Source: a virus
Length of the DNA: 35,554 bases
Reading direction: 5' to 3' (one strand)
Virus record (IMG/VR): IMGVR_UViG_3300027730_000079
Span: 1 to 35,554 of that record
Shown: in pieces, positions 22,706 to 34,163 of the stretch
How the letters are laid out: every line of letters starts with the position of its first letter
How positions within the stretch are numbered: position 1 is the stretch's first letter
Position numbers and translations under genes: made by a program
Notes under the pieces: generated by a model
The model's database searches: none
Seen by the model: only the letters and a program-made list of their open reading frames with translations
Told to the model about the DNA's origin: nothing

Positions 22706-22738
22706 GCTAAAGATACGAATAAGACATGAAAGAAGCAA
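22706..22738 (-). promoter_or_regulatory. Class-1 promoter (P22706)
   Basis: TTG, 20-nt spacer, TATCTTTAGC. Serves the gene at 22473-22703; leaderless type. Confidence 0.7.
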
Positions 22739-22741
22739 GTA

Positions 22742-22894
22742 TTAACCCTGACCTTTAGAGACTTTACAATAATTTTTTGAGTTTTTATTTTTAGACATTT
22801 TAGTCTTAGCATGAATGCCTTTTCGAGTAACCTTCGGTTTTGCAAACTTAACAATAACGGAGGTGGTTTTAGTTTTCCCTTTTGCTGGTGCCAT
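22742..22894 (-). CDS. Small lysine-rich basic protein (50 aa)
   Basis: A 50-residue protein with about 30% Lys/Arg and a C-terminal block KGIHAKTKMSKNKNSKNYCK followed by VSKGQG. I associate the pattern K-G-(I/V)-H-(A/S)-K-x-K...SKNY...GQG with small basic proteins of T4-like phages. It probably binds nucleic acid or the ribosome; the function is unknown. It starts 7 nt after a class-2-like motif that lies inside an inverted repeat, and it follows the tRNA cluster. Confidence 0.65.
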   Translation of the reverse strand: MAPAKGKTKTTSVIVKFAKPKVTRKGIHAKTKMSKNKNSKNYCKVSKGQG

Positions 22895-22933
22895 AATTAC
22901 TGATAAATATGACCCACTAATCTTTCAGTAATT
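22895..22933. repeat. Perfect 9-bp inverted repeat enclosing a late-type motif
   Basis: AATTACTGA and TCAGTAATT are separated by 21 nt; the class-2-like motif TATTTATCA lies at 22901-22909 and overlaps one arm. Could be an operator or an RNA hairpin in the leader of the 50-residue basic protein. Confidence 0.5.
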
Positions 22934-23031
22934 GCTTCCCCGGTGTTTTAGTTTTAACAAGCTTCCTAAAAATCGAAATCGAGATGATTAGATTACAGAT
23001 CTGTAAACTTATACAAAGTATTAACATATTG

Positions 23032-23106
23032 TATTCCCGATTGGATTCGAACCAATGACCTGCTCATTAGAAGTGAGCTGCTCTATCCTGCTGAGCTACG
23101 AGAACA
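23032..23106 (-). tRNA. tRNA-Arg (anticodon TCT)
   Basis: A 75-nt cloverleaf. A 7-bp acceptor stem (two wobble pairs), a GTAGCTCAG D arm, an anticodon stem GCTCA/TGAGC with loop CTTCTAA, and a T arm with TTCGAAT. CCA is not encoded. It reads AGA, a codon common in this A/T-rich genome. Confidence 0.93.
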
Positions 23107-23114
23107 TATAAAGG

Positions 23115-23199
23115 CGGAAGATGTAGGATTCGAACCTACGGACCTATTACAGTCAATGCTTTTCAAGAGCACCGCGATCGACCACTCTGCCAATCTTCC
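23115..23199 (-). tRNA. tRNA-Ser (anticodon TGA)
   Basis: An 85-nt type II tRNA: acceptor GGAAGAT/ATCTTCC with discriminator G, anticodon stem GTGCT/AGCAT with loop CTTGAAA, a long variable arm, and T loop TTCGAAT. It reads UCA. Confidence 0.93.
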
Positions 23200-23273
23200 A
23201 TAGTTGCAGGACATCGCTTAACCTACTGTAGATGTTCCTCCTACATTGTTCCCTTGCGGTACTACGATTTTTG

Positions 23274-23420
23274 TAATCAGGGTAGGACTCGAACCTACAA
23301 GTCTACAGCACTCCTGCTCTGAATCCCTTTTTGTTTAACGTGAGGATTGGATACACCTCATTGCAGTTTTTTAGTGTCTATCACGACTGGGTAACGCCCC
23401 AATCCTTCCACCACCTGACT
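23274..23420 (-). ncRNA. Over-long tRNA-like element A (147 nt, Leu-like ends)
   Basis: The ends form a good tRNA: acceptor AGTCAGG/CCTGATT with discriminator A, and a perfect T arm (GTAGG-TTCGAGT-CCTAC). The 5' part (TGGTGGAA...TGATAGACAC) resembles a tRNA-Leu D arm. The interior is ~60 nt too long and I cannot draw a valid anticodon arm. It contains a 7-bp hairpin (GATTGGG/CCCAGTC) within the D region, an alternative pairing GGATTGG/CCAATCC, and a small AGCA-GGAG-TGCT hairpin. It could be an interrupted tRNA-Leu, a decayed one, or a stable RNA like T4 RNA C/D. Confidence 0.55.
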
Positions 23421-23545
23421 ATATTTGAATCTTTTTAAAACTCCCAAGAGATTCTCAACTTGGCTGACCAACGATTCAGAGGATGAGTGAGCAGTTCTTA
23501 TGGTATGCCCTCCTGAGCTTCGATCCCGTGTACTTAGGGCCGTTG

Positions 23546-23620
23546 TTGCGGGAGTTGGAATCGAACCAACCTAGTCCAAGCTTATGAGACTTGTGTGTGC
23601 ACCAACTCATCTTCCCCGCA
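23546..23620 (-). tRNA. tRNA with CAT anticodon (Met or Ile2)
   Basis: A 75-nt tRNA: acceptor TGCGGGG/TCCCGCA with discriminator A, anticodon stem CAAGT/GCTTG with loop CTCATAA, and a perfect T arm (GTTGG-TTCGATT-CCAAC). The D arm is less regular. Sequence alone does not separate elongator Met, initiator Met, or lysidine-modified Ile. Confidence 0.88.
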
Positions 23621-23625
23621 ATTTG

Positions 23626-23757
23626 TAGTTAGAGCCGGACTCGAACCGGATACCGTTCATGACGGATTAGACAACCTTACGACGCAACGACCACCCATTA
23701 CAGGTGACCGCTAATCTTGGGGACTCGGGTACCATCCCTCATTACGTCCATCTAACT
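23626..23757 (-). ncRNA. Over-long tRNA-like element B (132 nt, type II-like)
   Basis: Acceptor AGTTAGA/TCTAACT is perfect with discriminator A. The T arm has 4 of 5 pairs around TTCGAGT. A variable-arm hairpin CCGT-CATGA-ACGG lies just before it, as in Ser, Leu or Tyr tRNAs. A candidate anticodon stem GATTAG/CTAATC encloses ~40 nt instead of 7, and that insert has its own 7-bp hairpin (GGTCACC/GGTGGTC). TACCCGAG is reminiscent of tRNA-Tyr D arms. It may be an intron-containing tRNA or a tRNA-derived RNA. Confidence 0.5.
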
Positions 23758-23784
23758 ATATTACACTTGTTCGCTACCTAACAT

Positions 23785-23793
23785 ATATAAATA
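23785..23793 (-). promoter_or_regulatory. Class-2-like motif TATTTATAT upstream of the tRNA cluster
   Basis: One mismatch to TATTTATAA, 28 nt before the first tRNA-like element. Confidence 0.35.
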
Positions 23794-23837
23794 TAAGAAC
23801 TAATATACTTTCTCACAAACTCTCCCTAAGGAGAACT

Positions 23838-24161
23838 TTACTTTTTATCAAACATTGCATTCACAAAGATCAAACCTACAAAGATCCCTCCGGCAAAGGC
23901 TAAAGCCAATCCCAAGGCACCGGGGAGGAATACCCCGCCCCCTATCAAGATCAAGCCCAAACCTGCATTAATCAAGTTAGCCTTTTTGAAGTCTTTTTTC
24001 TGACCCTCAGACTCTATCAAGTCTAATACTCTATTCCCTCCGATGATCATCCCAGATACTAACAAGCACCCGATGAACAAGAACATGAACCCTTTAACTA
24101 AGGCAGTGAATGCGATAACGGCGATAAAGCCTGCGATGATGATGTTGTTTTTCTTTTTCAT
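23838..24161 (-). CDS. Small integral membrane protein
   Basis: A 107-residue protein with hydrophobic segments at ~6-22, 25-43, 63-80 and 82-100, so probably four transmembrane helices. A charged loop in the middle (ESEGQKKDFKK) and Lys at both ends suggest both termini lie in the cytoplasm. The Gly-rich last two helices (GLILIGGGVFLPGALGLALA) pack tightly. The ATG follows the ~20-nt leader of a class-1 promoter. A role in the host envelope (superinfection exclusion or holin-like) is possible but unproven. Confidence 0.65.
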   Translation of the reverse strand: MKKKNNIIIAGFIAVIAFTALVKGFMFLFIGCLLVSGMIIGGNRVLDLIESEGQKKDFKKANLINAGLGLILIGGGVFLPGALGLALAFAGGIFVGLIFVNAMFDKK

Positions 24162-24183
24162 AACCTATTTCTTTTTATTATAA

Positions 24184-24216
24184 TCTAAAGATACGAACTT
24201 TTCTGATAGGAGGCAA
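24184..24216 (-). promoter_or_regulatory. Class-1 promoter (P24184)
   Basis: TTG, 20 nt, TATCTTTAGA. Serves the membrane protein at 23838-24161; leader type ending in AGGTTATG. Confidence 0.75.
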
Positions 24217-24220
24217 GCCT

Positions 24221-24373
24221 TTAATTCAAATCTTTTTTATTATTTTTCCTATTATACACCTTCCCAGAAGGCTTTACACGACTTATCATATTCCGGCGGA
24301 TGATCTGGCGGACCTGTCCCCGGGAGAGTCCTTTCAGGACATCCTCTGAATTATTTACTGTACCTCGGTTCAT
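24221..24373 (-). CDS. Small basic protein (50 aa)
   Basis: A 50-residue, highly basic protein. Residues ~15-35 (LSRGQVRQIIRRNMISRV) look like a short helix pair, and the C-terminal KVYNRKNNKKDLN tail is unstructured. It could bind nucleic acid. Its stop codon sits 4 nt before the next promoter, and it has its own class-1 promoter with a 20-nt leader. No family recognised. Confidence 0.6.
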   Translation of the reverse strand: MNRGTVNNSEDVLKGLSRGQVRQIIRRNMISRVKPSGKVYNRKNNKKDLN

Positions 24374-24395
24374 AATCTTATATCTTATAACTATA

Positions 24396-24428
24396 CCTAA
24401 AGATGTGAAGAATAATTCAAATAAACAA
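24396..24428 (-). promoter_or_regulatory. Class-1 promoter variant (P24396)
   Basis: TTG, 20 nt, CATCTTTAGG (T to C at the first -7 base). Serves the 50-residue basic protein at 24221-24373. Confidence 0.6.
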
Positions 24429-24435
24429 CTGTTTT

Positions 24436-25065
24436 CTAGTAGTACATAGGTTCTCCGTTAAAGAAATCCTTGCCGTAGTACAACACAGCATCTATGGCCT
24501 GATCTAAAGGGACCTCAAAGAATTCCCTTGTAGACCCTTGAAGGGTGCCTTTCCTTTTATCTTCAAAATGACGATGAACTAAGTTCTCAACCTTATAATC
24601 ATTTAAGACCGGGAGTGCAAATTTGAGATCCCATTCCGAGACTGTACCCGCACCATTGATTGCATGTATCCGATCCACGGGATTGACAGCCTTGCCGATC
24701 TTGCATATCCCCGGATACTCGGTATTAGTTAAGACATAGACATACTTACCCTTAGACTGGGAAAGATCGTAGTCCTGTAGTGCCTGTTTATCTTTGGCAT
24801 ACAAGTATATCCAAGTCATAGAACTAGTCTCATTGTCTACTGATATCAATACACTACTCATATACTCACAGTCGATGAAATCCAAGACTTTCTCAATACT
24901 GATTTTCCTGTATTTGTAGACCAGGTCCTGGTAATTCTTAGACCATCTAAGGATATTACCCTCCGGTACATCCTGGGAGAGAAGGGTTTTAGGATAATAG
25001 ACTTCCACATACCCTTTTTCCTCCATCTCCATCAAAGACTCAATGTCAATTGATTTTCTTTTCAT
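24436..25065 (-). CDS. GIY-YIG family protein, T5orf172/MUG113-like
   Basis: A 209-residue protein. Residues 1-100 form an unassigned N-terminal domain. Residues ~106-200 match the T5orf172/MUG113 branch of GIY-YIG nucleases: GKYVYVLTN, CKIGKAVNPVDRI and, further on, VENLVHRHFEDKR with GSTREFFEV. The Y, G-K and R-I positions of the active site are kept, and the Glu in VENLVH is a candidate catalytic acid. Such proteins cut DNA in phage defence, homing or host takeover. The ATG follows TATCTTTAGG by 2 nt, so it is likely leaderless. Confidence 0.75.
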   Translation of the reverse strand: MKRKSIDIESLMEMEEKGYVEVYYPKTLLSQDVPEGNILRWSKNYQDLVYKYRKISIEKVLDFIDCEYMSSVLISVDNETSSMTWIYLYAKDKQALQDYDLSQSKGKYVYVLTNTEYPGICKIGKAVNPVDRIHAINGAGTVSEWDLKFALPVLNDYKVENLVHRHFEDKRKGTLQGSTREFFEVPLDQAIDAVLYYGKDFFNGEPMYY

Positions 25066-25067
25066 AA

Positions 25068-25100
25068 CCTAAAGATACGAACATATATTGATATAACTAC
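25068..25100 (-). promoter_or_regulatory. Class-1 promoter, weak -33 (P25068)
   Basis: TATCTTTAGG is perfect, but the expected TTG position reads GTA. Precedes the GIY-YIG gene at 24436-25065. Confidence 0.5.
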
Positions 25101-25440
25101 CTAAAGACTAAAATTTTTCGGAAAAAATTCCTCGGGTGTCTTAGGGCCAGCCGTAAAGTCACTTTTTGGAAACTTAGGCAAGGGTCTTGGGTGGTACAAG
25201 GTATAAATATATACCCTTATAGTAAGATTTCTTCGGAAAGGATGATTGCAGCTTTAGCATAGTAGGCCGTAGATAACTACTATAGTGATATTAAGTACAC
25301 TTGTATTGAGTATGTGCTAGCTACCTATACCGTACTACATACGTACGTACTATGGTGGTGATAAAACCGTAGCACCGATTCTAGTAAACCGTAGACACAG
25401 AAAGAGCCGACTGTAGCCGACTCCCTCCTATCCTGTTCTT
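25101..25440. other. Gene-poor stretch with CCGTAG motifs
   Basis: About 340 nt without a supported gene. CCGTAG occurs at 25268, 25367 and 25389, with near matches CCGTAC at 25330 and CTGTAG at 25411. The palindrome GTACGTAC lies near 25343. The motif is the reverse complement of CTACGG in the array at 31.07 kb. Confidence 0.5.
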
Positions 25441-25446
25441 ATTCCC

Positions 25447-25698
25447 TTAGATGGGGTAAGCCATCATAGTCCCTGCATCATACCATTCAAAGTACCATCC
25501 GCAGGCTTCAATGAATCTATCTAGTTCTGGCTTTACTCCGAAGGTATCTACCCACTTCTCACTCCAGTAATTGAATAGGCCTGGAGTATCTTCTGCTGAG
25601 ATCCAGATCCCACCTTTCCCTATTCCAAATTCTTCTGTTGTTCCCACTACTCTAACTCCTGCATGCTCTAGAGCTGTCATTACATCTTCCTGTGTCAT
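25447..25698 (-). CDS. Small hypothetical protein
   Basis: An 83-residue soluble protein (MTQEDVMTALEHAGVRVVGT...) with a GIGKGGIWIS strand and an aromatic C-terminal half (WYFEWYDAG). I chose the ATG at 25698 because the leader before it matches the untranslated leader of other class-1 genes. An in-frame ATG 7 codons upstream (25719) sits at the predicted transcription start and would add MEKEIKV. No family recognised. Confidence 0.6.
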   Translation of the reverse strand: MTQEDVMTALEHAGVRVVGTTEEFGIGKGGIWISAEDTPGLFNYWSEKWVDTFGVKPELDRFIEACGWYFEWYDAGTMMAYPI

Positions 25699-25720
25699 AA
25701 CCTTTATTTCTTTTTCCATA

Positions 25721-25753
25721 CCTAAAGATACGAAGAAGCCTCCGAAGAGGCAA
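25721..25753 (-). promoter_or_regulatory. Class-1 promoter (P25721)
   Basis: TTG, 20 nt, TATCTTTAGG; the spacer holds CCTC-TTCG-GAGG. Serves the gene at 25447-25698. Confidence 0.85.
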
Positions 25754-25761
25754 CTTCTTTT

Positions 25762-26106
25762 TTAATCTTCTTTCTCCTCTAAAACATCCAAAAGAGCTTC
25801 TAACGTATCAACAGCTGACCGTACTAAGAAGTCTTCATCAATTGGAACTGACTCGATTTCAATTTGGTTATTATAACTAAGGCTCAATTCAATATCATCC
25901 TTATCAACAACATCCTCCCAATCTCTCTCCGAAAGCATTTGTCGGAAAGTAGTTAGTAGAGTATCTTTATCGATATTAGGTTTAGGAGATTCTTCCTGCA
26001 TCTCTGCATTCAAATCTGTTAGAAGTTTGATTACATCTTCTCTTGAGAATAAAGAAGGGAAACTGTTTGATACTTTCTCGATTGTGTTTTGAATTTGTTT
26101 TTGCAT
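25762..26106 (-). CDS. Small acidic helical protein
   Basis: A 114-residue acidic protein, helical at both ends (NTIEKVSNSFPSLF...; RSAVDTLEALLDVLEEKED), with no Cys and no membrane segment. The start is clear: the leader here has ATA where sister genes have an upstream ATG. That argues that the leader is normally untranslated. No family recognised. Confidence 0.6.
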   Translation of the reverse strand: MQKQIQNTIEKVSNSFPSLFSREDVIKLLTDLNAEMQEESPKPNIDKDTLLTTFRQMLSERDWEDVVDKDDIELSLSYNNQIEIESVPIDEDFLVRSAVDTLEALLDVLEEKED

Positions 26107-26129
26107 AACCTTTATTTGTTTTTTCTATA

Positions 26130-26162
26130 CCTAAAGATACGAACTTTCCTCTAAAGAGGCAA
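26130..26162 (-). promoter_or_regulatory. Class-1 promoter (P26130)
   Basis: TTG, 20 nt, TATCTTTAGG; spacer palindrome CCTCTTTAGAGG. Serves the gene at 25762-26106; 23-nt leader. Confidence 0.85.
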
Positions 26163-26165
26163 CTG

Positions 26166-26339
26166 TTATTTTCCTAACATGTATTCAAGCTCCTGAATAG
26201 TGGCTCTGATAGTCCCTATGTAAAGTCCTGCTTCATAAGCATGGCTAATCTCTTTACCTTTCCTGTCACCCTCTTCAAGCATATAGCTTAGAGTGTTCTT
26301 GATAGCTGTTAATTGATCTTTGATTTCTTTTTTTGTCAT
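26166..26339 (-). CDS. Small helical protein (57 aa)
   Basis: A 57-residue protein, two predicted amphipathic helices (KKEIKDQLTAIKNTLSYML and AGLYIGTIRATIQELEYML) joined by a charged turn. It has its own class-1 promoter and leader and ends 3 nt before the next class-1 promoter. No family recognised. Confidence 0.6.
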   Translation of the reverse strand: MTKKEIKDQLTAIKNTLSYMLEEGDRKGKEISHAYEAGLYIGTIRATIQELEYMLGK

Positions 26340-26356
26340 AACCTTTTTTTATTATA

Positions 26357-26389
26357 CCTAAAGATACGAACTATACTCTCAGCAGGCAA
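26357..26389 (-). promoter_or_regulatory. Class-1 promoter (P26357)
   Basis: TTG, 20 nt, TATCTTTAGG. Serves the 57-residue gene at 26166-26339. The -33 TTG lies in the last codons of the upstream gene, whose TGA stop is in the spacer. Confidence 0.8.
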
Positions 26390-26567
26390 CATATTCCTCA
26401 AGAAAGACTAAACTTTTTTCCACTTGAGTTCTAATGAATAATTTGATCTCAACCTCACTGAATCCTTCTTCGATTAGTTCAATGATGTTTGCCTGGAGTG
26501 CCATGGGTATATCCATAGGACATACTCTCTTCATCTCTCTCATTTTTAGATCTGTCATTTGTTTCAT
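26379..26567 (-). CDS. Small hypothetical protein (62 aa)
   Basis: A 62-residue protein (MKQMTDLKMREMKRVCPMDI...) with two Cys and a helical C-terminal part (EVEIKLFIRTQVEKSLVF). Its last residues (YVAC) and stop are encoded inside the next class-1 promoter. The ATG 1 nt after TATCTTTAGGT suggests a leaderless message; a second ATG three codons in is the alternative. No family recognised. Confidence 0.6.
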   Translation of the reverse strand: MKQMTDLKMREMKRVCPMDIPMALQANIIELIEEGFSEVEIKLFIRTQVEKSLVFLEEYVAC

Positions 26568-26568
26568 A

Positions 26569-26601
26569 CCTAAAGATACGAACTAGCCGCTTAGGAGGCA
26601 A
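26569..26601 (-). promoter_or_regulatory. Class-1 promoter (P26569)
   Basis: TTG, 20 nt, TATCTTTAGG. Serves the gene at 26379-26567; leaderless type. Confidence 0.8.
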
Positions 26602-26609
26602 CTGTTATT

Positions 26610-26711
26610 TTACCCCACAGTCGCCCTGCAGTGAGAGCATTTGACAATCCTCAGACCGGAAGCCGGGTGAGAGACTGCAACATAGGTCTTAAGATGCTTA
26701 CATGTGCTCAT
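26610..26711 (-). CDS. Zinc-ribbon-like micro-protein (33 aa)
   Basis: A 33-residue protein with two Cys/His pairs: C4-K-H6 near the start and C25-S-H-C28 (VKCSHC) near the end. The central HPASGLRIVKC resembles a minimal zinc ribbon hairpin. It starts 4 nt after the stop of the gene at 26716-26901, so it is likely co-translated with it. It is short enough to be chance, but the Cys/His layout and spacing support it. Confidence 0.5.
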   Translation of the reverse strand: MSTCKHLKTYVAVSHPASGLRIVKCSHCRATVG

Positions 26712-26715
26712 AAGC

Positions 26716-26901
26716 CTAGCCCTGATCTAAACTTTCTCCTGAAATAATGAATTGAACGAAACCATCTTCTTCTTGTATGTGACACTCCTCAGACACAATT
26801 TCCATCTGTTCCCCATACCCATACTCAACCAACCCTACAAACTCAATCTCTGATTCTGGATTGAATTCGTTTAGCCTTTCGATTAGATCTTTTATCTTCA
26901 T
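26716..26901 (-). CDS. Small acidic hypothetical protein
   Basis: A 61-residue acidic protein beginning MKIKDLIERLNEFNPESEIEF. The opening has the helix-then-strand look of small phage proteins that start KIKDLIExLxxxxPDxEV. I start it at 26901. Longer reading would translate the promoter itself (…FVSLG). The ATG 1 nt after TATCTTTAGGT implies a leaderless mRNA. Function unknown. Confidence 0.65.
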   Translation of the reverse strand: MKIKDLIERLNEFNPESEIEFVGLVEYGYGEQMEIVSEECHIQEEDGFVQFIISGESLDQG

Positions 26902-26902
26902 A

Positions 26903-26935
26903 CCTAAAGATACGAATAATAAAGAAGGGGACCAA
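26903..26935 (-). promoter_or_regulatory. Class-1 promoter (P26903)
   Basis: TTG, 20 nt, TATCTTTAGG. Serves 26716-26901 and probably the micro-protein at 26610-26711. Confidence 0.8.
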
Positions 26936-26972
26936 CTAGGCCCCCAACTTTTATGAAAAATAAACAAAGGTT

Positions 26973-27704
26973 TTAAACTAATTGACCAATCAAGTATTTG
27001 GTCTGAACTCCCTCTAACACACCGCCGACTACTAATTCCTTATCATAATTTAGGCAAGTATACTCAACGGTCACTTTCTTCCCTGAAGCATTCTTATCAA
27101 TACATTTCAATTTCACCACTCTGTAGACTGTATCGTATCTCCCTCTCCCATATTCAATATTTCGCATCTCATCAAACGTTACCTCTTCCCCGCTATAGAA
27201 ACTCTCCAATACTTTTGCTCTCTTCTCTTCTGCTTCTTCCCTATTCATCTTATCGATCTCACGACTCAAAGCATAGTCTTCAGTATGCAACACATCTGAC
27301 TGTTCTTTATAGATTGCAAGCAAGCCATCCTCTACAAAGATTTGATCAATACAAGACTGCATCCCTCCCTTATAAAGCACCTCAGCAACCTTGCCGTTGA
27401 AGATTAATCTCCTATATTCAAACTCAGTATCGACATTAGTAGAGTAGGTATTCAAATAGTGATTAGAATTCCCTACCCAGCTTCTTGAATTGATTGAAAG
27501 GATCTCTTTCCTATCAACATTGAAGTATAGAGTATCTCCGTAAGAGATTGATAAGCTAACCTCCGGAAAGTCTACCAACACCTCTTTAAGTATTTCCTCT
27601 GCTCTCTTAACAAGCAATTCGTTTTTCTGAGCTTCTAAGATCTGTATCTCCTGAAGGATTACATTTCTTCTGTCAATTAGTGTCTGTTTGATGATGTTTG
27701 TCAT
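26973..27704 (-). CDS. Hypothetical protein, 243 aa
   Basis: A soluble protein with a helical N-terminal part (NVILQEIQILEAQKNELLVK) then a beta-rich body. The middle (SREIDKMNREEAEEKRAKVL) is a charged helix. The last ~60 residues form a strand-rich domain (DTVYRVVKLKCI, KKVTVEYTCLNY). It is the longest gene of the accessory block. I choose ATG 27704 (MTNIIKQ...). An in-frame upstream ATG at 27725 would add MEKEIKV, as in two sister genes. No family recognised. Confidence 0.65.
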   Translation of the reverse strand: MTNIIKQTLIDRRNVILQEIQILEAQKNELLVKRAEEILKEVLVDFPEVSLSISYGDTLYFNVDRKEILSINSRSWVGNSNHYLNTYSTNVDTEFEYRRLIFNGKVAEVLYKGGMQSCIDQIFVEDGLLAIYKEQSDVLHTEDYALSREIDKMNREEAEEKRAKVLESFYSGEEVTFDEMRNIEYGRGRYDTVYRVVKLKCIDKNASGKKVTVEYTCLNYDKELVVGGVLEGVQTKYLIGQLV

Positions 27705-27726
27705 AACCTTTATTTCTTTTTCCATA

Positions 27727-27759
27727 CCTAAAGATACGAACCTTCCTCCGAGGAGGCAA
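27727..27759 (-). promoter_or_regulatory. Class-1 promoter (P27727)
   Basis: TTG, 20 nt, TATCTTTAGG; spacer hairpin CCTC-CTCG-GAGG. Serves the gene at 26973-27704. Confidence 0.85.
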
Positions 27760-27771
27760 CTTTTATTTTGA

Positions 27772-27837
27772 TTATTTTGTCACTACATACACTGTGAACC
27801 CAGTCCACAATGTTACTATCACTATTGTTATTACCAT
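27772..27837 (-). CDS. Membrane micro-protein (21 aa)
   Basis: A 21-residue peptide that is almost entirely one hydrophobic helix (MVITIVIVTLWTGFTVYVV, then TK). Its ATG shares a base with the stop of the 35-residue gene before it (TAATG), so translation should be coupled. Co-transcribed small membrane peptides are known as holin or antiholin pairs in phages; here this is only a possibility. Confidence 0.4.
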   Translation of the reverse strand: MVITIVIVTLWTGFTVYVVTK

Positions 27838-27944
27838 TATTTTCCTGCTAAACTATACAACGTTACTATTAATGTAGCTGCTGCCATGATGATGCCGCTT
27901 AACAATACTACTCCGATTACTGTGTCTTTTAATACTTGTTTCAT
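27837..27944 (-). CDS. Membrane micro-protein (35 aa)
   Basis: A 35-residue peptide. After MKQVLKDT, one transmembrane helix spans ~residues 9-31 (VIGVVLLSGIIMAAATLIVT). It has a full class-1 promoter and a leader ending in AAAAGTTATG, which is strong support for expression. It sits directly before the 21-residue membrane peptide with a 1-nt overlap. Function unknown; a small membrane effector is likely. Confidence 0.6.
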   Translation of the reverse strand: MKQVLKDTVIGVVLLSGIIMAAATLIVTLYSLAGK

Positions 27945-27968
27945 AACTTTTATTTCTTTTTTATTATA

Positions 27969-28001
27969 CCTAAAGATACGAACTTACTTTCGATAAGGCA
28001 A
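27969..28001 (-). promoter_or_regulatory. Class-1 promoter (P27969)
   Basis: TTG, 20 nt, TATCTTTAGG. Serves the micro-protein pair. The TAG stop of the upstream gene is the TAG of TATCTTTAG. Confidence 0.85.
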
Positions 28002-28161
28002 CTGTTTTTTCTAAAAACTTTTCCCCTTCATTAAATGCTCTTTCAATCTCCTCCTTGTGCATTGCTTTGGCTTGTTGTATAATCTCTGGCCATTTTAAAG
28101 AATCTTTTAAGTGTATATTATTTAATATAAACTCCAAGCTACTTTGTTTATTGTTGCTCAT
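27970..28161 (-). CDS. Small hypothetical protein (63 aa)
   Basis: A 63-residue helical protein (SSLEFILNNIHLKDSLKWPE, then AKAMHKEEIERAFNEGEKFL). Its last ten residues (VALSKVSSYL) are encoded by the downstream class-1 promoter and its stop is within the -7 box. That may mean the original gene was extended into, or trimmed by, the promoter. It overlaps the gene upstream by 4 nt (ATGA). Confidence 0.6.
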   Translation of the reverse strand: MSNNKQSSLEFILNNIHLKDSLKWPEIIQQAKAMHKEEIERAFNEGEKFLEKTVALSKVSSYL

Positions 28162-28367
28162 TTGTTACCTTCTTTTATTTTATTAAGTACATAGTTTGCA
28201 CCACCTATCCATACTTCATTGTATTCTTCAGAGTGATATCCATTCTTATCTATCTCCTCATCACTTGGTAGTTCGATGTACTCTAAATTTTCCATGTCAT
28301 CTAACGTAATAAAACTCTGTTTAGTCGTTAGAAATTTTCTGATTTGTTCTTCTGTGTATAGTTTCAT
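28158..28367 (-). CDS. Small acidic hypothetical protein (69 aa)
   Basis: A 69-residue acidic protein (MKLYTEEQIRKFLTTKQSFI...), with an N-terminal helix and a Tyr/Glu-rich C-terminal part ending in YVLNKIKEGNK. First gene of a two-gene unit behind P28384, with leader ending AAAGGTTATG. The next gene starts within its stop. No family recognised. Confidence 0.6.
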   Translation of the reverse strand: MKLYTEEQIRKFLTTKQSFITLDDMENLEYIELPSDEEIDKNGYHSEEYNEVWIGGANYVLNKIKEGNK

Positions 28368-28383
28368 AACCTTTTTTCCTATA

Positions 28384-28416
28384 CCTAAAGATACGAACTT
28401 ACTTTCGATAAGGCAA
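28384..28416 (-). promoter_or_regulatory. Class-1 promoter (P28384)
   Basis: TTG, 20 nt, TATCTTTAGG; identical in spacer to P27969, so one is a recent copy of the other. Serves 28158-28367 and 27970-28161. Confidence 0.85.
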
Positions 28417-28417
28417 C

Positions 28418-28663
28418 TTAAATTTCATCTTCTTCAAACAAATCATCCATTCCCATTTCCTTCGCTATCTTCCTAGCTGCTTCCAACTGCTCAGGCGTAA
28501 TATCTGTAGTGTGGCCAAGATTAACCAACTTCTCTTCAACTTCTGCCATCTGCTGCTCTGTAGGAGAATCCCAGAATGAATCATTAGTAACATAAAGATC
28601 TCCGTATAACTCTGAAGCAATATCAGCTAGGATGTTTCTCAATTCAAGTAATTCTGCTATCAT
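28418..28663 (-). CDS. Small acidic hypothetical protein
   Basis: An 81-residue acidic protein (MIAELLELRNILADIASELY...). It is helical, with a predicted second helix TPEQLEAARKIAKEMGM and an acidic tail (DDLFEEDEI). I start it at 28663, after the leader. An in-frame ATG at 28684 would add MEKETKV. Longer reading only translates the promoter. No family recognised. Confidence 0.6.
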   Translation of the reverse strand: MIAELLELRNILADIASELYGDLYVTNDSFWDSPTEQQMAEVEEKLVNLGHTTDITPEQLEAARKIAKEMGMDDLFEEDEI

Positions 28664-28685
28664 AACCTTTGTTTCTTTTTCCATA

Positions 28686-28718
28686 CCTAAAGATACGAAC
28701 CTTCCTCTCATGAGGCAA
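28686..28718 (-). promoter_or_regulatory. Class-1 promoter (P28686)
   Basis: TTG, 20 nt, TATCTTTAGG; spacer CCTC-ATGA-GAGG, whose loop TGA is the stop codon of the gene at 28708-28917. Serves 28418-28663. Confidence 0.85.
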
Positions 28719-28917
28719 CTTTAATTCGTTTTTTTAGATCTTCAACCGACCCTTCAAGGCCAGGCGGATCCAACCTGAGCATACACTCCCGGAAGGACCC
28801 GGTGAATAGAACCTGGCAGTAATTCTTAGGCATGGCATCCACGGCCGCTATTGCGAACATCCGATTGCCATAATGGTTAGTATAATCGTAGTAGTTAAAT
28901 TCCTTTTCTTTTCTCAT
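28708..28917 (-). CDS. Small hypothetical protein (69 aa)
   Basis: A 69-residue protein with an aromatic N-terminus (FNYYDYTNHYGNRMFA) and a C-terminal helix (SVEDLKKRIKVAS). Its start lies 23 nt inside the end of the upstream gene, in another frame, so it is translated from the same message. Higher GC than its neighbours suggests a separate origin. No family recognised. Confidence 0.55.
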   Translation of the reverse strand: MRKEKEFNYYDYTNHYGNRMFAIAAVDAMPKNYCQVLFTGSFRECMLRLDPPGLEGSVEDLKKRIKVAS

Positions 28918-29227
28918 TAATAATTGCCTCCATCTCCCCTATAAAATCAAACGCATTAACCTTTGACCCGATATTCCATCTTGTTAATTCATTTTCAGTA
29001 TACCCCCGGTCATAAGTCTTCCAGTCGTATAAGGTATAAAGATTACCCCTGAATTCAATCACCCATTCCATCTGAGTCTTATCATCACCAGAGGGTTTAT
29101 CAAACGTTGGTTCTCCTAACGCATTAATCAAGTCCCGGTAAGTAACATTATCCAAATAACCTGACAAGCTAGTCCCAGTAGTCTGCGGTGCTCTGCCATT
29201 TTTAAAAACCTTTATTTTCATTTCCAT
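28895..29227 (-). CDS. Conserved phage protein of unknown function (TGTSLxGY type)
   Basis: A 110-residue protein. The stretch QTTGTSLSGYLDNVTYRDLI, then ALGEPTF, EWVIEF and LYDWKTYDRG, with RWNIGS near the end, matches a small family I know from many phages, without known function. Start at 29227 (MEMKIKVFKNG). Here the second ATG of the leader is replaced by TTT, so the upstream ATG must be used. This shows that the 'MExxIKV' leader can be translated. The promoter box is TATCTTTAGC. Confidence 0.7.
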   Translation of the reverse strand: MEMKIKVFKNGRAPQTTGTSLSGYLDNVTYRDLINALGEPTFDKPSGDDKTQMEWVIEFRGNLYTLYDWKTYDRGYTENELTRWNIGSKVNAFDFIGEMEAIINEKRKGI

Positions 29228-29229
29228 AA

Positions 29230-29262
29230 GCTAAAGATACGAAGAAAAGAGGAGGGAACCAA
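29230..29262 (-). promoter_or_regulatory. Class-1 promoter (P29230)
   Basis: TTG, 20 nt, TATCTTTAGC. Serves the genes at 28895-29227 and 28708-28917. Confidence 0.8.
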
Positions 29263-29280
29263 CCCTCCCCTAAACTTTTT

Positions 29281-29574
29281 TTAATTTTCTATTCTTTCTA
29301 ACCCTAATAATTCTTCTGCAGCTTTCTTATCAGCATATGCAATTGCATCTTCCGGATCGATAAGCTCCTCCCCTGATTGCAAAATAGGTTCTAAATTAAA
29401 TCTGCTGCAATCTTCTAATAAACCTAAAACAGCCAACCAATCATAATCGGTCAAATTAGCTTCTGCGTAATAAATTCCATTTGCTGCATCGTCTACCGTA
29501 ATGCTGAAATTTAATTTCTCATAAGCTGCTAAATTAGCAAAACTGTCTTCGAATGCAAATATTATTTTTTTCAT
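29281..29574 (-). CDS. Small acidic hypothetical protein
   Basis: A 97-residue acidic protein (MKKIIFAFEDSFANLAAYEK...), with alternating strand and helix, and a C-terminal helix (AIAYADKKAAEELLGLERIE). I start it at 29574; earlier codons would translate the promoter. The ATG follows TATCTTTAGGT directly, so the mRNA is probably leaderless. No family recognised. Confidence 0.6.
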   Translation of the reverse strand: MKKIIFAFEDSFANLAAYEKLNFSITVDDAANGIYYAEANLTDYDWLAVLGLLEDCSRFNLEPILQSGEELIDPEDAIAYADKKAAEELLGLERIEN

Positions 29575-29575
29575 A

Positions 29576-29608
29576 CCTAAAGATACGAATAAGCTGCCGG
29601 GGCGGCAA
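29576..29608 (-). promoter_or_regulatory. Class-1 promoter (P29576)
   Basis: TTG, 20 nt, TATCTTTAGG; spacer GC-rich hairpin (GCCG-CCC-CGGC). Serves 29281-29574. Confidence 0.85.
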
Positions 29609-29641
29609 CTAAAAGTTTTTTTTATTTTTCTCAACAGACAG

Positions 29642-29674
29642 TTGGTCCTTTGAAGGACCGTTCGTATCTTTAGG
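29642..29674 (+). promoter_or_regulatory. Class-1 promoter on the plus strand (for small RNA A)
   Basis: TTG, 20 nt, TATCTTTAGG; the spacer contains the palindrome GGTCCTTTGAAGGACC. It points away from all protein genes and is followed by the conserved RNA block. Confidence 0.8.
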
Positions 29675-29748
29675 ATGTCGGAAAGATGGAGTACGAAGGG
29701 CGGGGTAGAAACCTGAAGAGATCAGACGGAGTTTGTTCTTTTTTTTTT
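29675..29748 (+). ncRNA. Putative small RNA A
   Basis: About 75 nt after a plus-strand class-1 promoter, related along its length to small RNA B. Conserved blocks are GTCGGAA(A/G)GAT, AGTACGAAGGGCGG, GAAGAGATCAGACG and AGTTTGTTCT. Between copies there is a 5-nt length change, so the conservation is not that of a reading frame. The 3' end is a hairpin (AAGAGATCAGAC / GTTTGTTCTTTT, one T-T mismatch, triloop GGA) running into a T tract. No protein family or known RNA recognised. Confidence 0.7.
29716..29748 (+). terminator. Intrinsic-terminator-like 3' hairpin of small RNA A
   Basis: Twelve paired positions with one mismatch and a 3-nt loop, then a run of T. It would end a plus-strand transcript of ~75 nt. 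Confidence 0.5.
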
Positions 29749-29760
29749 AAGAACCTAACT

Positions 29761-29788
29761 AAAAAAAACCTCCCGTGTTACTGGAAGG
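29761..29788 (-). terminator. Rho-independent terminator after the wHTH gene
   Basis: On the minus strand CCTTCC-AGTAACAC-GGGAGG followed by eight T. It ends the transcript of the gene at 29808-30104 just before small RNA A. Confidence 0.75.
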
Positions 29789-29807
29789 TCCTTTAAGAAA
29801 GTGAAGA

Positions 29808-30104
29808 TTAATAATACAAGTAGTCTGGATGGTCTTGATACTCAGCCCATTTAGGGTGAAGATGCCAGAAAGCCTTCTGAAGATAAATAAGTTGATAAAC
29901 TGGAGCTCCATAAGTCTCCGTTGCTTGGATAGATACTACCCCTTTCTTAACTAAGCTGCTCAATACCCCTCTAACGATAGAGGTTGAGATGCCAGTCTCT
30001 TTAGACAGATCCTTTGCATCAACGTCTGAGAAGCCGGGCTCGGCATAGAGATTGAAGATTAACGAATCTAATACCTGCTGTTCTAATTCTGTGAAGTTTG
30101 TCAT
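29808..30104 (-). CDS. Winged-helix DNA-binding protein
   Basis: A 98-residue protein (MTNFTELEQQVLDSLIFNLY...). The helix-turn-helix runs through VDAKDLSKETGISTSIVRGV, followed by LSSLVKKGVVSI and a beta wing (TYGAPVYQLIYL). This matches small phage winged-helix proteins of the same opening. It probably regulates phage transcription. I start it at ATG 30104; the upstream in-frame ATG at 30125 would add MEMEIKV. A strong terminator follows. Confidence 0.75.
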   Translation of the reverse strand: MTNFTELEQQVLDSLIFNLYAEPGFSDVDAKDLSKETGISTSIVRGVLSSLVKKGVVSIQATETYGAPVYQLIYLQKAFWHLHPKWAEYQDHPDYLYY

Positions 30105-30126
30105 AACCTTTATTTCCATTTCCATA

Positions 30127-30159
30127 CCTAAAGATACGAAGAAGCCTCTCCGGAGGCAA
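30127..30159 (-). promoter_or_regulatory. Class-1 promoter (P30127)
   Basis: TTG, 20 nt, TATCTTTAGG; spacer CCTC-CGGA-GAGG. Serves the winged-helix gene. Confidence 0.85.
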
Positions 30160-30165
30160 CTTTAT

Positions 30166-30351
30166 TTAGTACCAATTTTGATTTATTATCACATGATTAT
30201 ATCTGATATTCTCATGCTTGTCCCTATTCCACACCTTAACCTCACAGTAGGTATTATTCTTACCGTATTGGTATCTGACTACTTCATACATGTCAGCAGT
30301 CTCCTTCAGATGCCTCCACCTGGCCCTGCCTATCCTATTGTATTTTTCCAT
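30166..30351 (-). CDS. Small basic hypothetical protein (61 aa)
   Basis: A 61-residue protein rich in Arg, Tyr and Asn (MEKYNRIGRARWRHLKETAD...; YCEVKVWNRD), mixed helix and strands. It may bind nucleic acid. The ATG lies 2 nt after the variant -7 box TATCTTTAGGG, so leaderless. No family recognised. Confidence 0.55.
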   Translation of the reverse strand: MEKYNRIGRARWRHLKETADMYEVVRYQYGKNNTYCEVKVWNRDKHENIRYNHVIINQNWY

Positions 30352-30353
30352 AC

Positions 30354-30386
30354 CCTAAAGATAGGAAGAAGCTTCTGTGCAGGCAA
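30354..30386 (-). promoter_or_regulatory. Class-1 promoter variant (P30354)
   Basis: TTG, 20 nt, TATCTTTAGG, but TTCC instead of TTCG before the -7 box. Serves 30166-30351. Confidence 0.75.
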
Positions 30387-30420
30387 CAGAAATCTTTTTT
30401 ATTTTTTTTCCCTAAGACGG

Positions 30421-30453
30421 TTGGTCCCCTCAAGGATGGTTCGTATCTTTATG
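30421..30453 (+). promoter_or_regulatory. Class-1 promoter on the plus strand (for small RNA B)
   Basis: TTG, 20 nt, TATCTTTA followed by TG instead of GG. Directs transcription of small RNA B, opposite to all genes. Confidence 0.75.
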
Positions 30454-30523
30454 TTGTCGGAAGGATAGTATCTAGTACGAAGGGCGGCTGGCAAAGTTGA
30501 AGAGATCAGACGTAGTTTGTTCT
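30454..30523 (+). ncRNA. Putative small RNA B (paralogue of A)
   Basis: Shares with A the blocks GTCGGAAGGAT, AGTACGAAGGGCGG, GAAGAGATCAGACG and AGTTTGTTCT, with a 5-nt insertion after the first block. The 3' hairpin is kept (AGATCAGAC / GTTTGTTCT, loop GTA), but the T tract of A is missing, so the end is less certain; GAGGAGATTCCT follows. A start-to-stop reading frame is not conserved between the copies. It may also be covered by an antisense transcript from the minus promoter at 30558. Confidence 0.65.
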
Positions 30524-30557
30524 GAGGAGATTCCTGAAAAGAAAAAGGGGAACGGCT

Positions 30558-30590
30558 CCTAAAGATACGAACTTCCCTTCAATAAAGCAA
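30558..30590 (-). promoter_or_regulatory. Class-1 promoter without a gene (P30558)
   Basis: TTG, 20 nt, TATCTTTAGG. No ATG-started frame lies between it and the next promoter; its transcript would run antisense through small RNA B. Confidence 0.75.
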
Positions 30591-30872
30591 CTATAATTTT
30601 GAAATAATTTCCATGTGACGGGCTACCTGGTCTGGGGTCTGGTGCCCTAGGACTGCCGTACGCCCATCCAGGGCTTCCTCCCAGGCTCCTTCCTCAAAGG
30701 CCAGCCAATGGTCTTCCCCTGAATGCCAGGCGGCCACTTCTGCCGTTGTCTGCCCTTGGTCTGAATAAGTATGTTCCCCAAAGGCTACACTGAGGGTATA
30801 CCCGTTAGAGAATGTGATTTGAAATCCTGCATGGTCCTGTCTTGGGGCAGTTGAGAATACTTTCTTATGCAT
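30591..30872 (-). CDS. Conserved phage hypothetical protein (93 aa)
   Basis: A 93-residue protein: FQITFSNGYTLSVAFGEHTYSD, then TTAEVAAWHSGEDHWLAF, LDGRTAVLGHQTPDQVARHM. The (F/I)TF-NG-x-T-x-SVxFG opening is common in small phage and plasmid proteins of unknown function. Clearly higher GC than neighbours, a sign of transfer. The ATG lies 3 nt after TATCTTTAG, so leaderless. Its stop is immediately followed by P30558. Confidence 0.65.
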   Translation of the reverse strand: MHKKVFSTAPRQDHAGFQITFSNGYTLSVAFGEHTYSDQGQTTAEVAAWHSGEDHWLAFEEGAWEEALDGRTAVLGHQTPDQVARHMEIISKL

Positions 30873-30874
30873 GT

Positions 30875-30907
30875 ACTAAAGATACGAACCAAAGTTCGGT
30901 TAGGCAA
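30875..30907 (-). promoter_or_regulatory. Class-1 promoter (P30875)
   Basis: TTG, 20 nt, TATCTTTAGT; spacer holds CGAAC-TTTG-GTTCG running into the -7 region. Serves 30591-30872. Confidence 0.8.
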
Positions 30908-31067
30908 GGTATTTTTTTACTTTCAGACTATTTATTATAGAGGCAGGCTTTCACCCACCATCATTGCGATACCGGGAGTTACGACGATTGAAACCAGCTT
31001 CAAAAATGTACTAGAATGCTTTCAACAGCACAGCCCCCCTATTGCCTGGGTCAAATTTTTTTTTTGT

Positions 31068-31176
31068 CTACGGCTTGCTCCTACGGTCGGCTCTCTACGG
31101 TTCCCTAATGCTACGGCCTGCTCCTACAGTTGACTCCCTTACGGTTTACTATATGCTACGGTGGGCTCTGCTACGG
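31068..31176. repeat. Eight-unit CTACGG array
   Basis: CTACGG (or one-base variants CTACAG, TTACGG) starts at 31068, 31081, 31095, 31111, 31124, 31139, 31156 and 31171: intervals 13-17 nt, mean ~15. Units are separated by short C/T-rich spacers, several ending GCTC. Confidence 0.8.
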
Positions 31177-31232
31177 TTATCTTGCTCGATTCGATAAGAA
31201 ACCCCCCTAAAACACTTAATTTCTATAGAAAG

Positions 31233-31263
31233 TTGCTTTAAGGAGGCATTTATGCTATAATTC
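31233..31263 (+). promoter_or_regulatory. Possible plus-strand promoter, class-1-like
   Basis: TTG, exactly 20 nt, then TATAATTC instead of TATCTTTA; the spacer has AGGAGGC. It would transcribe the gene-free stretch rightwards. Confidence 0.35.
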
Positions 31264-31359
31264 TCTAAAATACCCAACTTACTTACTTTCTAGTCTTTCT
31301 ACACACCATTCTACATTCTTCTATAGTCTCCTATATTCCCTTCTATTATTTAATACACA

Positions 31360-31532
31360 CTACGGTTTTCCCATACACTTCCCATCTCCTTACATTCTTT
31401 ATTCTTTCATACAGTTTTAATATGTTTTCCTTATGTTTTCTTAGGGTCTACGGTACTCTCTACAGTCTTCTATACAGTTGGTACGTATGATAGACTCCCT
31501 ACGGTCGTCCCTACGTCTTTCTTATCCTACGG
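31360..31532. repeat. Dispersed CTACGG copies
   Basis: CTACGG at 31360, 31448, 31499 and 31527, CTACAG at 31460, CTACGT at 31511. Same motif as the regular array, with looser spacing. Confidence 0.6.
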
Positions 31533-31559
31533 TTATCTATATTCTATTCTATTCTTATT

Positions 31560-32075
31560 CTAATATACTAATGGGTCTTCTAATCTTTTCTCTCTCATAT
31601 ATCTTTCTACTCTATTATTATATTCTATATAGAAGTCTGAAGTATTATTTATCTCATCATTACTCCTCTTCTTCTCAAGGCAATTTTCTAGCAAAGTTTC
31701 CCAGATCATTTGTTTCACATCCAGATCTAAAAAGGGGTAGTTGCTTCTAAAGGCCGCTTGCTTAAATTCTTCCAGTCTCTTTAATTCTTCTTTGGTAAGT
31801 TCCTCCTCTACTTTCATTATGCTTACTCTTGCCTTTTTATAGATCTGGTCAATATTCTCTCTAATAGAATCATCTCTTAGACCTTTACTACGGCTTACGG
31901 CCCAGTATTCCTTCACACGTTTCTCCAAGCTCTTCTTCTGTTTCATCAAGTCGTTCTTAACGTCGTTAGGGTATTCAAAGTCCCCGTTCTCGATCTGCTT
32001 TTGAATAGAGTATTTAACCCCTAGTTTCTTATGCCTTGGGCCTCTTACCCAGTACTGAAATCTATTATAGCTCAT
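31560..32075 (-). CDS. Basic helical protein of unknown function (171 aa)
   Basis: A 171-residue, Lys/Arg-rich protein, mostly charged helices (KNDLMKQKKSLEKRVKEYWAV; KVEEELTKEELKRLEEFKQA). No membrane segment or enzyme motif. The ATG is 3 nt after TATCTTTAGG, so leaderless. It is the first gene left of the DUF932 gene and ends at the border of the gene-free stretch. No family recognised; a nucleic-acid-binding role is conceivable. Confidence 0.6.
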   Translation of the reverse strand: MSYNRFQYWVRGPRHKKLGVKYSIQKQIENGDFEYPNDVKNDLMKQKKSLEKRVKEYWAVSRSKGLRDDSIRENIDQIYKKARVSIMKVEEELTKEELKRLEEFKQAAFRSNYPFLDLDVKQMIWETLLENCLEKKRSNDEINNTSDFYIEYNNRVERYMREKRLEDPLVY

Positions 32076-32077
32076 TA

Positions 32078-32110
32078 CCTAAAGATACGAATAAAAAGGC
32101 GGGGAGACAA
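32078..32110 (-). promoter_or_regulatory. Class-1 promoter (P32078)
   Basis: TTG, 20 nt, TATCTTTAGG. Serves 31560-32075. Confidence 0.8.
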
Positions 32111-32129
32111 CTCCCCACCCTTGTTTTAT

Positions 32130-32915
32130 TTAGATATAAGATTCTGCTAACTGGTAAAGCTTCTCGTTCAATTCAATATCCCTATTGAAGTTTTTGATTG
32201 ATCTTGCAGTCTTATTTCTGCCTGTAGATGCTTTGTATTTAAAGCCTCCTCTAGACATTTTCTCCTGAATGATATTAAATACAACCCACAAATCATCCCC
32301 CTCATCCTCCTTACGGGTAGGTTTAAGAATCTCCTCCGGAGTTACTTCTGCTCCATTCTCACCAAATCTAATCCCTAGAGCAGCTAAAGCAAATTCAGCC
32401 TTCTGCTCTTCAGTCAAAGTTACTTCCCTAAACTTATTCAAAGTTTCAATAGTAACCGGAAGTTCTTCTACAAGACCCATAACCGTCTGCTTTAAAGCAT
32501 CAAAAGAGTATCCTTTATGTCTGATAGACATTGCACCGAATTCCTTAGTAGCGATCACTAATCCGTTAGTACAAACTAATCTAAATAAACCTGCCCGGAA
32601 TTGGAATGAAGATAAACCATCATGAGAGTTACTCAAAAGGATCTGAGGATAAACCACCTCACCGTCCTCTGATGCGATAACCACATTATCGTTTCTGAAG
32701 GTAATCAAATGCTTTTTATGATCTGCAGTGCCTTCCTTCTTAGAACGGACTTGCTTAGCATCCGTTACTCCCCATCCAAGTTTTGCCATATCTTCGATAA
32801 GGTCGATGGTTGGAACGTGAACGTACTTCCCAGATACATTAGCAGCTGAGGTTGTACTTACTGCTGCTGGAGCAGCTTTAGCGATCTGGTCGATGGTTAA
32901 AAATGTGTTTTTCAT
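32130..32915 (-). CDS. DUF932 family protein
   Basis: A 261-residue protein. Residues ~40-150 fit the DUF932 (phage/plasmid-related, TIGR03299-like) core: VPTIDLIEDMAKLGWGV near the start, KHLITFRNDN, PQILLSNSHDGLSSFQF and RAGLFRLVCTNGLVI. The family is common on phages and plasmids, without an established biochemical role. A replication or anti-defence function has been suggested only from context. The ATG follows a ~20-nt leader behind P32939. Confidence 0.8.
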   Translation of the reverse strand: MKNTFLTIDQIAKAAPAAVSTTSAANVSGKYVHVPTIDLIEDMAKLGWGVTDAKQVRSKKEGTADHKKHLITFRNDNVVIASEDGEVVYPQILLSNSHDGLSSFQFRAGLFRLVCTNGLVIATKEFGAMSIRHKGYSFDALKQTVMGLVEELPVTIETLNKFREVTLTEEQKAEFALAALGIRFGENGAEVTPEEILKPTRKEDEGDDLWVVFNIIQEKMSRGGFKYKASTGRNKTARSIKNFNRDIELNEKLYQLAESYI

Positions 32916-32938
32916 AACTTTTATTTCTTATATCTATA

Positions 32939-32971
32939 CCTAAAGATACGAAGAAGAAGGGGAGTAAGCAA
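32939..32971 (-). promoter_or_regulatory. Class-1 promoter (P32939)
   Basis: TTG, 20 nt, TATCTTTAGG. Serves the DUF932 gene; leader type. Confidence 0.8.
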
Positions 32972-33245: not shown

Positions 33246-34163
33246 TTATTGTCTTAAGGTTTTTTTGTTTCTGTAGTTAACGCTGGTAAACATGCCTGGG
33301 ATTAAGTCATGGCTAGTTGCTCTAATTGGATTGATATCCAAGCCTCCTCTTCTGGTATACAAGCAAGCAACCATAAGTTCGGTAGGATCATAAGCTTCCA
33401 TTAAGTGAATATAAATCATCTCGCAAATCTCCTCATGGAAATGAGATACCTGTCTGTGAGATACAATGTACTTAGCGATTGATTCATAATCCGGAACTAG
33501 TGTACCGTTCATGTGAATGTAAACATCACCCCAGTCCGGTTGATTAGTCACCCTGCAATTTGATCTTAGTAAGTTAGACTTAATCTTAGTCTCTACATTA
33601 AATTCAAGCTCTGAAGGATTGACTTTCAGCTGAGAGGAATCTGAATGGAAAGTATCAAATTCAACTTCATCCAAATTAACCAATCGTTCAAGATCAATAA
33701 AGTCTCCTCCGAATTCAAACTCGGGAGTAAGATCATTCAAATAGAACTTAACATTAACCTTACTATTTAAAGCTTCAGATAAATCCCTGGCAACAGTCTC
33801 TTGAACGTACTCACGGCACTCTTCTGCAGTCTGCCCGGCTTTAGTCATGTTAAATGAATTTAAGTAAAGCTTGATTGACTTTGACTCAACGTGTAAAGGA
33901 GAATCAGCACTGTAGTAGATTTTCATCATACCAGATACCGGAAGTCCTTTCTCAGTCAGAGCAGAAACTTCATAAGCATTCCAAACATCCCCTCCCACAA
34001 AAGGAAGTTGCTCTTCTTTAATTCCATAAGACTCTCGATTGAAATAACGAGGGATTGCTACTAGCAAGGAAGGATCATAAAGGTCGCTATAACCTTCCCC
34101 TCCTACTTTACCCAAATGTTTTGATGCTATTCTGATAACATCGGCTTGTAAATTATTTTCCAT
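33246..34163 (-). CDS. queF: NADPH-dependent 7-cyano-7-deazaguanine reductase (QueF), long form
   Basis: A 305-residue protein of the long, E. coli-type QueF form (~280). It would reduce preQ0 to preQ1 with NADPH. The QueF motif is at ~93-103 (ESKSIKLYLNSF). The catalytic region has SNCRVTNQPDWGD: nucleophile C203, general acid D210. FHEE supplies H243/E244, and YTRRGGLDINPIR is the C-terminal signature. All key residues are kept, so it should be active. In phages QueF can serve 7-deazaguanine DNA modification; partner genes are not in this window. Its start overlaps the nuclease-like gene upstream by 11 nt. Confidence 0.93.
   Translation of the reverse strand: MENNLQADVIRIASKHLGKVGGEGYSDLYDPSLLVAIPRYFNRESYGIKEEQLPFVGGDVWNAYEVSALTEKGLPVSGMMKIYYSADSPLHVESKSIKLYLNSFNMTKAGQTAEECREYVQETVARDLSEALNSKVNVKFYLNDLTPEFEFGGDFIDLERLVNLDEVEFDTFHSDSSQLKVNPSELEFNVETKIKSNLLRSNCRVTNQPDWGDVYIHMNGTLVPDYESIAKYIVSHRQVSHFHEEICEMIYIHLMEAYDPTELMVACLYTRRGGLDINPIRATSHDLIPGMFTSVNYRNKKTLRQ

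Follow-up and report, generated by a model that had tools for sequence, protein, structure and literature searches.

Ten uncultivated viral records encode a family of small structured RNAs which, with transcription predicted from sequence, is very probably real and working, since its shape has been kept through evolution while its letters change. Two of its members, RNA A and RNA B, lie in the window, by which we mean the whole stretch of DNA analysed, a linear IMG/VR virus record of 35,554 bases. The family is conserved and non-coding, its members stand behind promoters, the arms of their second hairpin (P2) covary, two paralogues have been kept and there are no same-strand genes downstream. 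We propose, with about an even chance of being right, that the RNA is an early, free-standing molecule acting in trans as a ligand or decoy for a protein.

Results

RNA A, RNA B and their promoters

The original prediction held that all protein genes of this DNA run on the minus strand, that a plus-strand promoter of the phage's own class at 29642 drives a small RNA ending in a terminator, and that this RNA has a paralogue with which it shares no reading frame. All convincing protein genes of the window are indeed on the minus strand, and the promoter is there, as TTG plus TTCGTATCTTTA at 29661-29672. The paralogue was likewise recovered (30421-30523, plus strand; 79% identical, E=1.4e-20 within the record), and the two copies have no common reading frame. 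The terminator was confirmed for RNA A, which has a hairpin at 29723-29735, a longer A-U stem and ten T at 29739-29748. It failed as a family trait: no T tract is found in RNA B or in several homologues, and a terminator is therefore a feature of individual copies only. The features of the window are as follows (L numbers are related contigs, listed further below).

29642-29672, plus strand: promoter A, of the Bacteroidota -33/-7 type (TTG 29642-29644, 20-nt spacer, TATCTTTA 29665-29672)
29677-29748, plus strand: RNA A, predicted to start at about 29676-29677 and to end within the T tract
29678-29696, plus strand: P1 of RNA A, UCG (29678-29680) with CGA (29694-29696), GAA (29681-29683) opposite AGUA (29690-29693), 6-nt apical loop
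29701-29715, plus strand: P2 hairpin of RNA A, with covarying arms
29723-29748, plus strand: P3 of RNA A (29723-29727 with 29731-29735) and ten T (29739-29748), terminator-like
30421-30451, plus strand: promoter B (TTG 30421-30423, TATCTTTA 30444-30451), identical to promoter A
30456-30523, plus strand: RNA B, the paralogue, with an 11-nt apical stem-loop (AGAU-AGU-AUCU type), no T tract and no defined 3' end
30560-30571, minus strand: promoter box facing RNA B from its 3' side, also in L059, absent from L073 and L099
31069-31530, plus strand (that of the RNA): array of 11 TACGG motifs downstream of RNA B, a candidate origin; context, not part of the RNA

The promoter of RNA A (TTG at 29642-29644 with TTCGTATCTTTA at 29661-29672, plus strand) is a perfect copy of the early class of the phage; about 66 nt follow it, then the hairpin, then the ten T. 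At 20 of the 21 exact TTCGTATCTTTA boxes of the window a TTG stands exactly 23 nt 5' of TATCTTTA, and 18 of these 20 bipartite promoters are on the minus strand, mostly preceding genes. With up to two mismatches, TTCGTATCTTTA is observed 33 times in the window, against 7.2 expected. The primary promoter of Bacteroidota is composed of TTG at -33 and TAnnTTTG at -7. In the window TTG and TAnnTTT keep a fixed spacing, and we take the phage arrangement (TTG, 20 nt, TATCTTTA), found at A, at B and at most early genes, to be the same -33/-7 layout, although the phage box ends in A instead of G and has phage-specific TTCG flanks. About 20 near-identical early promoters of this form are spread over 22708-32952, and the spacer between their two elements often holds a G+C-rich inverted repeat. 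The boxes cluster among small genes, which suggests early expression. Behind the minus-strand box at 30560-30571 no gene lies close before RNA B; this box could yield an RNA antisense to RNA B. Elsewhere in the window, a tRNA-like 3' end (GTAGGACTCGAACCTAC) at 23270-23298 lies between called tRNA genes and was called by neither ARAGORN nor Rfam.

Distribution of the family

Relatives were found by pattern scans of viral contigs, profile checks and a covariance model, R1. A first loose scan gave 95 stretches, among which an nhmmer check marked as RNA-like those of L059, L099, L033, L073, L076, L088, L071, L100 and, weakly, L015; matches of the further scans were mostly of coding type, L126 being the sole new real one. 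With the window counted, the family comprises 16 copies in ten records, the homologues in the nine other IMG/VR contigs (26-476 kb) scoring 34-87 bits.

Two copies (A and B) each: L059, 44 kb; L099, 105 kb; L033, 26 kb; L073, 166 kb; L076/L088, 115 kb
One copy: L071, 40 kb, the contig ending about 290 nt past the RNA
One copy: L100, 40 kb, divergent
One copy: L015, 476 kb
One copy: L126, 55 kb, at the contig start

The family may extend beyond these ten records. Weak model matches in L216-L218, L304 and L305 were rejected as coding-like sequence in which the motif is not kept, and matches in a Thermoplasmata MAG and a Pacificibacter genome contig, which look coding, were rejected as chance.

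The A copy of the window and its orthologues in L059, L099 and L073 share 86-91% identity over the RNA, against 52-63% over the 100 nt upstream and 12-46% downstream; most of these flanks are at or below 60% or fail to align. Pairs of B orthologues range from 67% to 97% identity. Even in L126 the RNA is better conserved than the flanking DNA. The baseplate protein of L126 is 47% identical to that of the window and, judging by such sequence evidence, L126 belongs to the same broad T4-like phage group. Three kinds of promoter precede the GUC-aligned RNA starts, namely the phage box, a Bacteroidota TTG/TATCTTTG promoter in L015 and an A+T-rich, -10-like element in L126. Among cultured phages, the nearest relative found was Flavobacterium phage immuto (160 kb), with a baseplate wedge 46% and a DUF932 protein 40% identical, and the carriers of the RNA are presumably large viruses of Bacteroidota-type bacteria. 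The window also holds a QueF-type 7-cyano-7-deazaguanine reductase gene (33246-34163), and immuto has a fuller 7-deazaguanine pathway together with DpdA; it is thus likely that this phage group modifies its DNA.

Fold and covariation

The common fold consists of three hairpins, P1, P2 and P3, joined by invariant purine-rich linkers (AAGGG from P1 to P2, AAGARAUCA from P2 to P3). In P1, UCG and CGA enclose an internal loop of GAA opposite AGUA, present in every copy but the divergent L100, which lacks the P1 internal loop. From this invariant sequence we infer that GAA/AGUA forms a bulged-G or loop-E-like motif. The apical element of P1 measures 3 nt in L071B, L073B and L033B, 6 nt in the A copies and L126, and about 30 nt in L015; it is an 11-nt stem-loop in the B copies of the window, L059 and L099. 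P2 too differs in length among copies.

A search for homologues with compensatory changes had been proposed as a check on the RNA; it yielded the 16 copies and, in P2, covariation with P=0.0012. In this permutation test the P2 arms were fixed by the flanking anchors only; among the seven variants, 26 of the 28 variable positions are paired, and no re-pairing of the arms scores higher. The pairs are of G-C, C-G, A-U and G-U type, the first three all occurring at one position pair. RNAalifold, unaided, recovers P1 and P2 with two compensatory pairs. In alignment A4, 91.7% of cells pair, against 85.4% when shuffled and 23-43% when slid; as A4 was fitted to the model, the anchored permutation is the cleaner test. 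P3 pairs only partly, one pair out of five being disrupted in 6 of 14 copies, and is less well supported than P1 and P2. A T tract follows P3 in the A copies of the window, L059 and L033 and in L100 and L015; the B copies, L099A and L126 have none, and their 3' ends are therefore less surely free-standing. The fold energy of RNA A alone is unexceptional (z about 0.9), so that the case for it rests on conservation and not on stability.

Genomic context

In the L073 (166 kb) and L099 (105 kb) contigs nearly all coding sequence is on one strand and the RNAs are on the opposite one, so that a cis element would have no operon to act on. In each of the five genomes RNA A and an early small gene are divergently oriented. 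The L015 copy lies just upstream of a gene that runs in the same direction, a placement that would also suit a cis element. A riboswitch was considered and rejected, since no gene lies downstream of the RNA in the window.

Five two-copy genomes were tested (window, L059, L099, L033, L073), and in each a TACGG array lies 3' of RNA B, about 500-1070 nt past it in the relatives. Within about 1.1 kb there are 6-11 motifs on the strand of the RNA, versus 0-1 on the other. The array occupies a non-coding region of 600-700 bp in a genome whose coding is otherwise confined to one strand, and B is the nearest copy, transcribed toward it. We consider this array a candidate replication origin or packaging site. 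By eye, an ECF-type sigma-factor-like gene adjoins it in L088 (2445-2981), L033 (1162-1692) and L099 (4978-5535).

Absence from known collections

Searched with the whole Rfam 15 library of covariance models, the RNA matches no family, the abiF / type III antitoxin RNA (RF03085) included. At the sensitivity used it was found neither in the isolate-phage collection nor in the plasmid collection. Two pattern scans of GTDB genomes did not find it, nor did searches of other DUF932-bearing phage contigs, of immuto, of Microcystis phage Mel-JY01 and of the 484-kb LR756508. Our literature search returned nothing matching the RNA and no small RNA described for Bacteroidota phages. With no Rfam match and no annotated isolate phage carrying the RNA, calling it undescribed, as the original prediction did, is fair within the collections searched. 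Phage small RNAs are a known kind; this family was found, among those collections, only in uncultivated viral contigs.

Discussion

We hypothesize that A and B are paralogous genes for a structured non-coding RNA some 66-75 nt long, and that each copy is transcribed from its own early, host-type promoter opposite to all protein genes. The RNA would start at or beside GUCGG, fold into the three hairpins and, early in infection, act in trans by engaging a host or phage protein as a compact ligand or decoy, possibly a protein of the transcription, translation or RNA-targeting defence machinery. This is the simplest reading of an RNA that is free-standing, has no downstream genes, conserves an internal loop and shows no visible pairing target. 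Transcription, start site, loop-E geometry, trans action and protein partner are all predictions.

Among known RNAs, the stable RNAs C and D of phage T4 can be likened to it by kind alone, as small RNAs of large myoviruses. The RNAs of cyanophage S-CREM1 are also small RNAs of a large myovirus, but they belong to the Rfam families abiF, wcaG, manA and glnA (PMC9964418), whereas the A/B family has no Rfam match.

The main rival is a role in replication, as B always aims at the TACGG array, a candidate origin. The transcript from B (and A) would enter the repeat-rich non-coding region and prime or regulate replication, like T4 origin transcripts, the folded 5' part controlling processing or R-loop fate. 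B is the copy nearest to the array and points at it in all five two-copy genomes tested and, lacking a terminator, may be continued into it; besides, an ACGGGT array occupies the corresponding strand in immuto. Yet immuto has that array without the RNA, and L015 and L126 have the RNA with no TACGG-type array near it. In both the window and L059, B and the array are separated by a minus-strand gene, and the skew at four-fold sites shows no clear switch at the RNAs. RNA A, with the same fold and its ten T, stops short of the array and is separately kept. A replication role thus fits B and not A, and we regard it as unlikely, though with an appreciable chance.

Most of the reviewed phage trans-acting sRNAs of known function belong to temperate phages that infect enterobacteria or staphylococci, and most work by base pairing (PMC12197685). 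The present RNA resembles them in being short and non-coding, in having its own promoter on the non-coding strand and, in some copies, a terminator; none of them matches it in sequence in the Rfam search. Its invariant linkers could pair, as conserved single-stranded stretches, with host or phage mRNAs. However, pairing to E. coli rRNA does not exceed the shuffled level, the L073 genome has matches of 10-11 nt only in the RNAs themselves and at scattered single sites, and the best-conserved part resembles an internal-loop motif, not an open seed. The lack of excess rRNA pairing and the scattered L073 matches mildly favour a protein partner, and we hold base pairing to be rather improbable.

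Slightly less probable still is a nascent RNA that modifies RNA polymerase in cis, after the manner of HK022 putL and putR, two related RNAs of about 70 nt that lie by early promoters and fold into hairpins with non-canonical pairs (PMC9378689). The likeness is real, for our RNA too has two copies per genome of about 70 nt that start at a promoter and fold, with a dispensable T tract. The put RNAs, which bind the zinc domain of the RNA polymerase beta' subunit, act on downstream genes whose terminators are read through, whereas in our contigs, L015 excepted, nearly all genes lie on the opposite strand. In the 166 kb of L073 no same-strand downstream gene is there to be antiterminated, and the ten T straight after A would make such an element terminate itself.

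The distances between the conserved blocks take all three reading phases and most copies are broken by stops, from which we conclude that this is an RNA locus and not a protein gene. A tiny leaderless reading frame (MSE..STKGG..EEIRR) in place of an RNA gene is very improbable, for although in L071B, L033B, L073B and L126 one frame stays open and encodes similar residues, stops interrupt both copies of the window, of L059 and of L099 as well as L033A and L015, the three phases are used, the hairpin arms covary and the expected starts would fall inside or after the ATG.

Returning to a trans-acting, protein-binding RNA, it is tempting to go further, if on somewhat less than even confidence, and to suggest that deeply diverged T4-like phages possess a new compact RNA family that binds a conserved host protein early in infection and manipulates or shields it. 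RNA polymerase, a ribosome-associated factor or an RNA-sensing defence protein would be candidates.

In summary, little has been learned so far about small RNAs in lytic phages. The RNA described here is small, its promoters are clear and so, in some copies, is its end; it has been maintained as a pair of paralogues and is conserved above its flanks. It is thus a tractable probe of what such phages do to their hosts by means of RNA.
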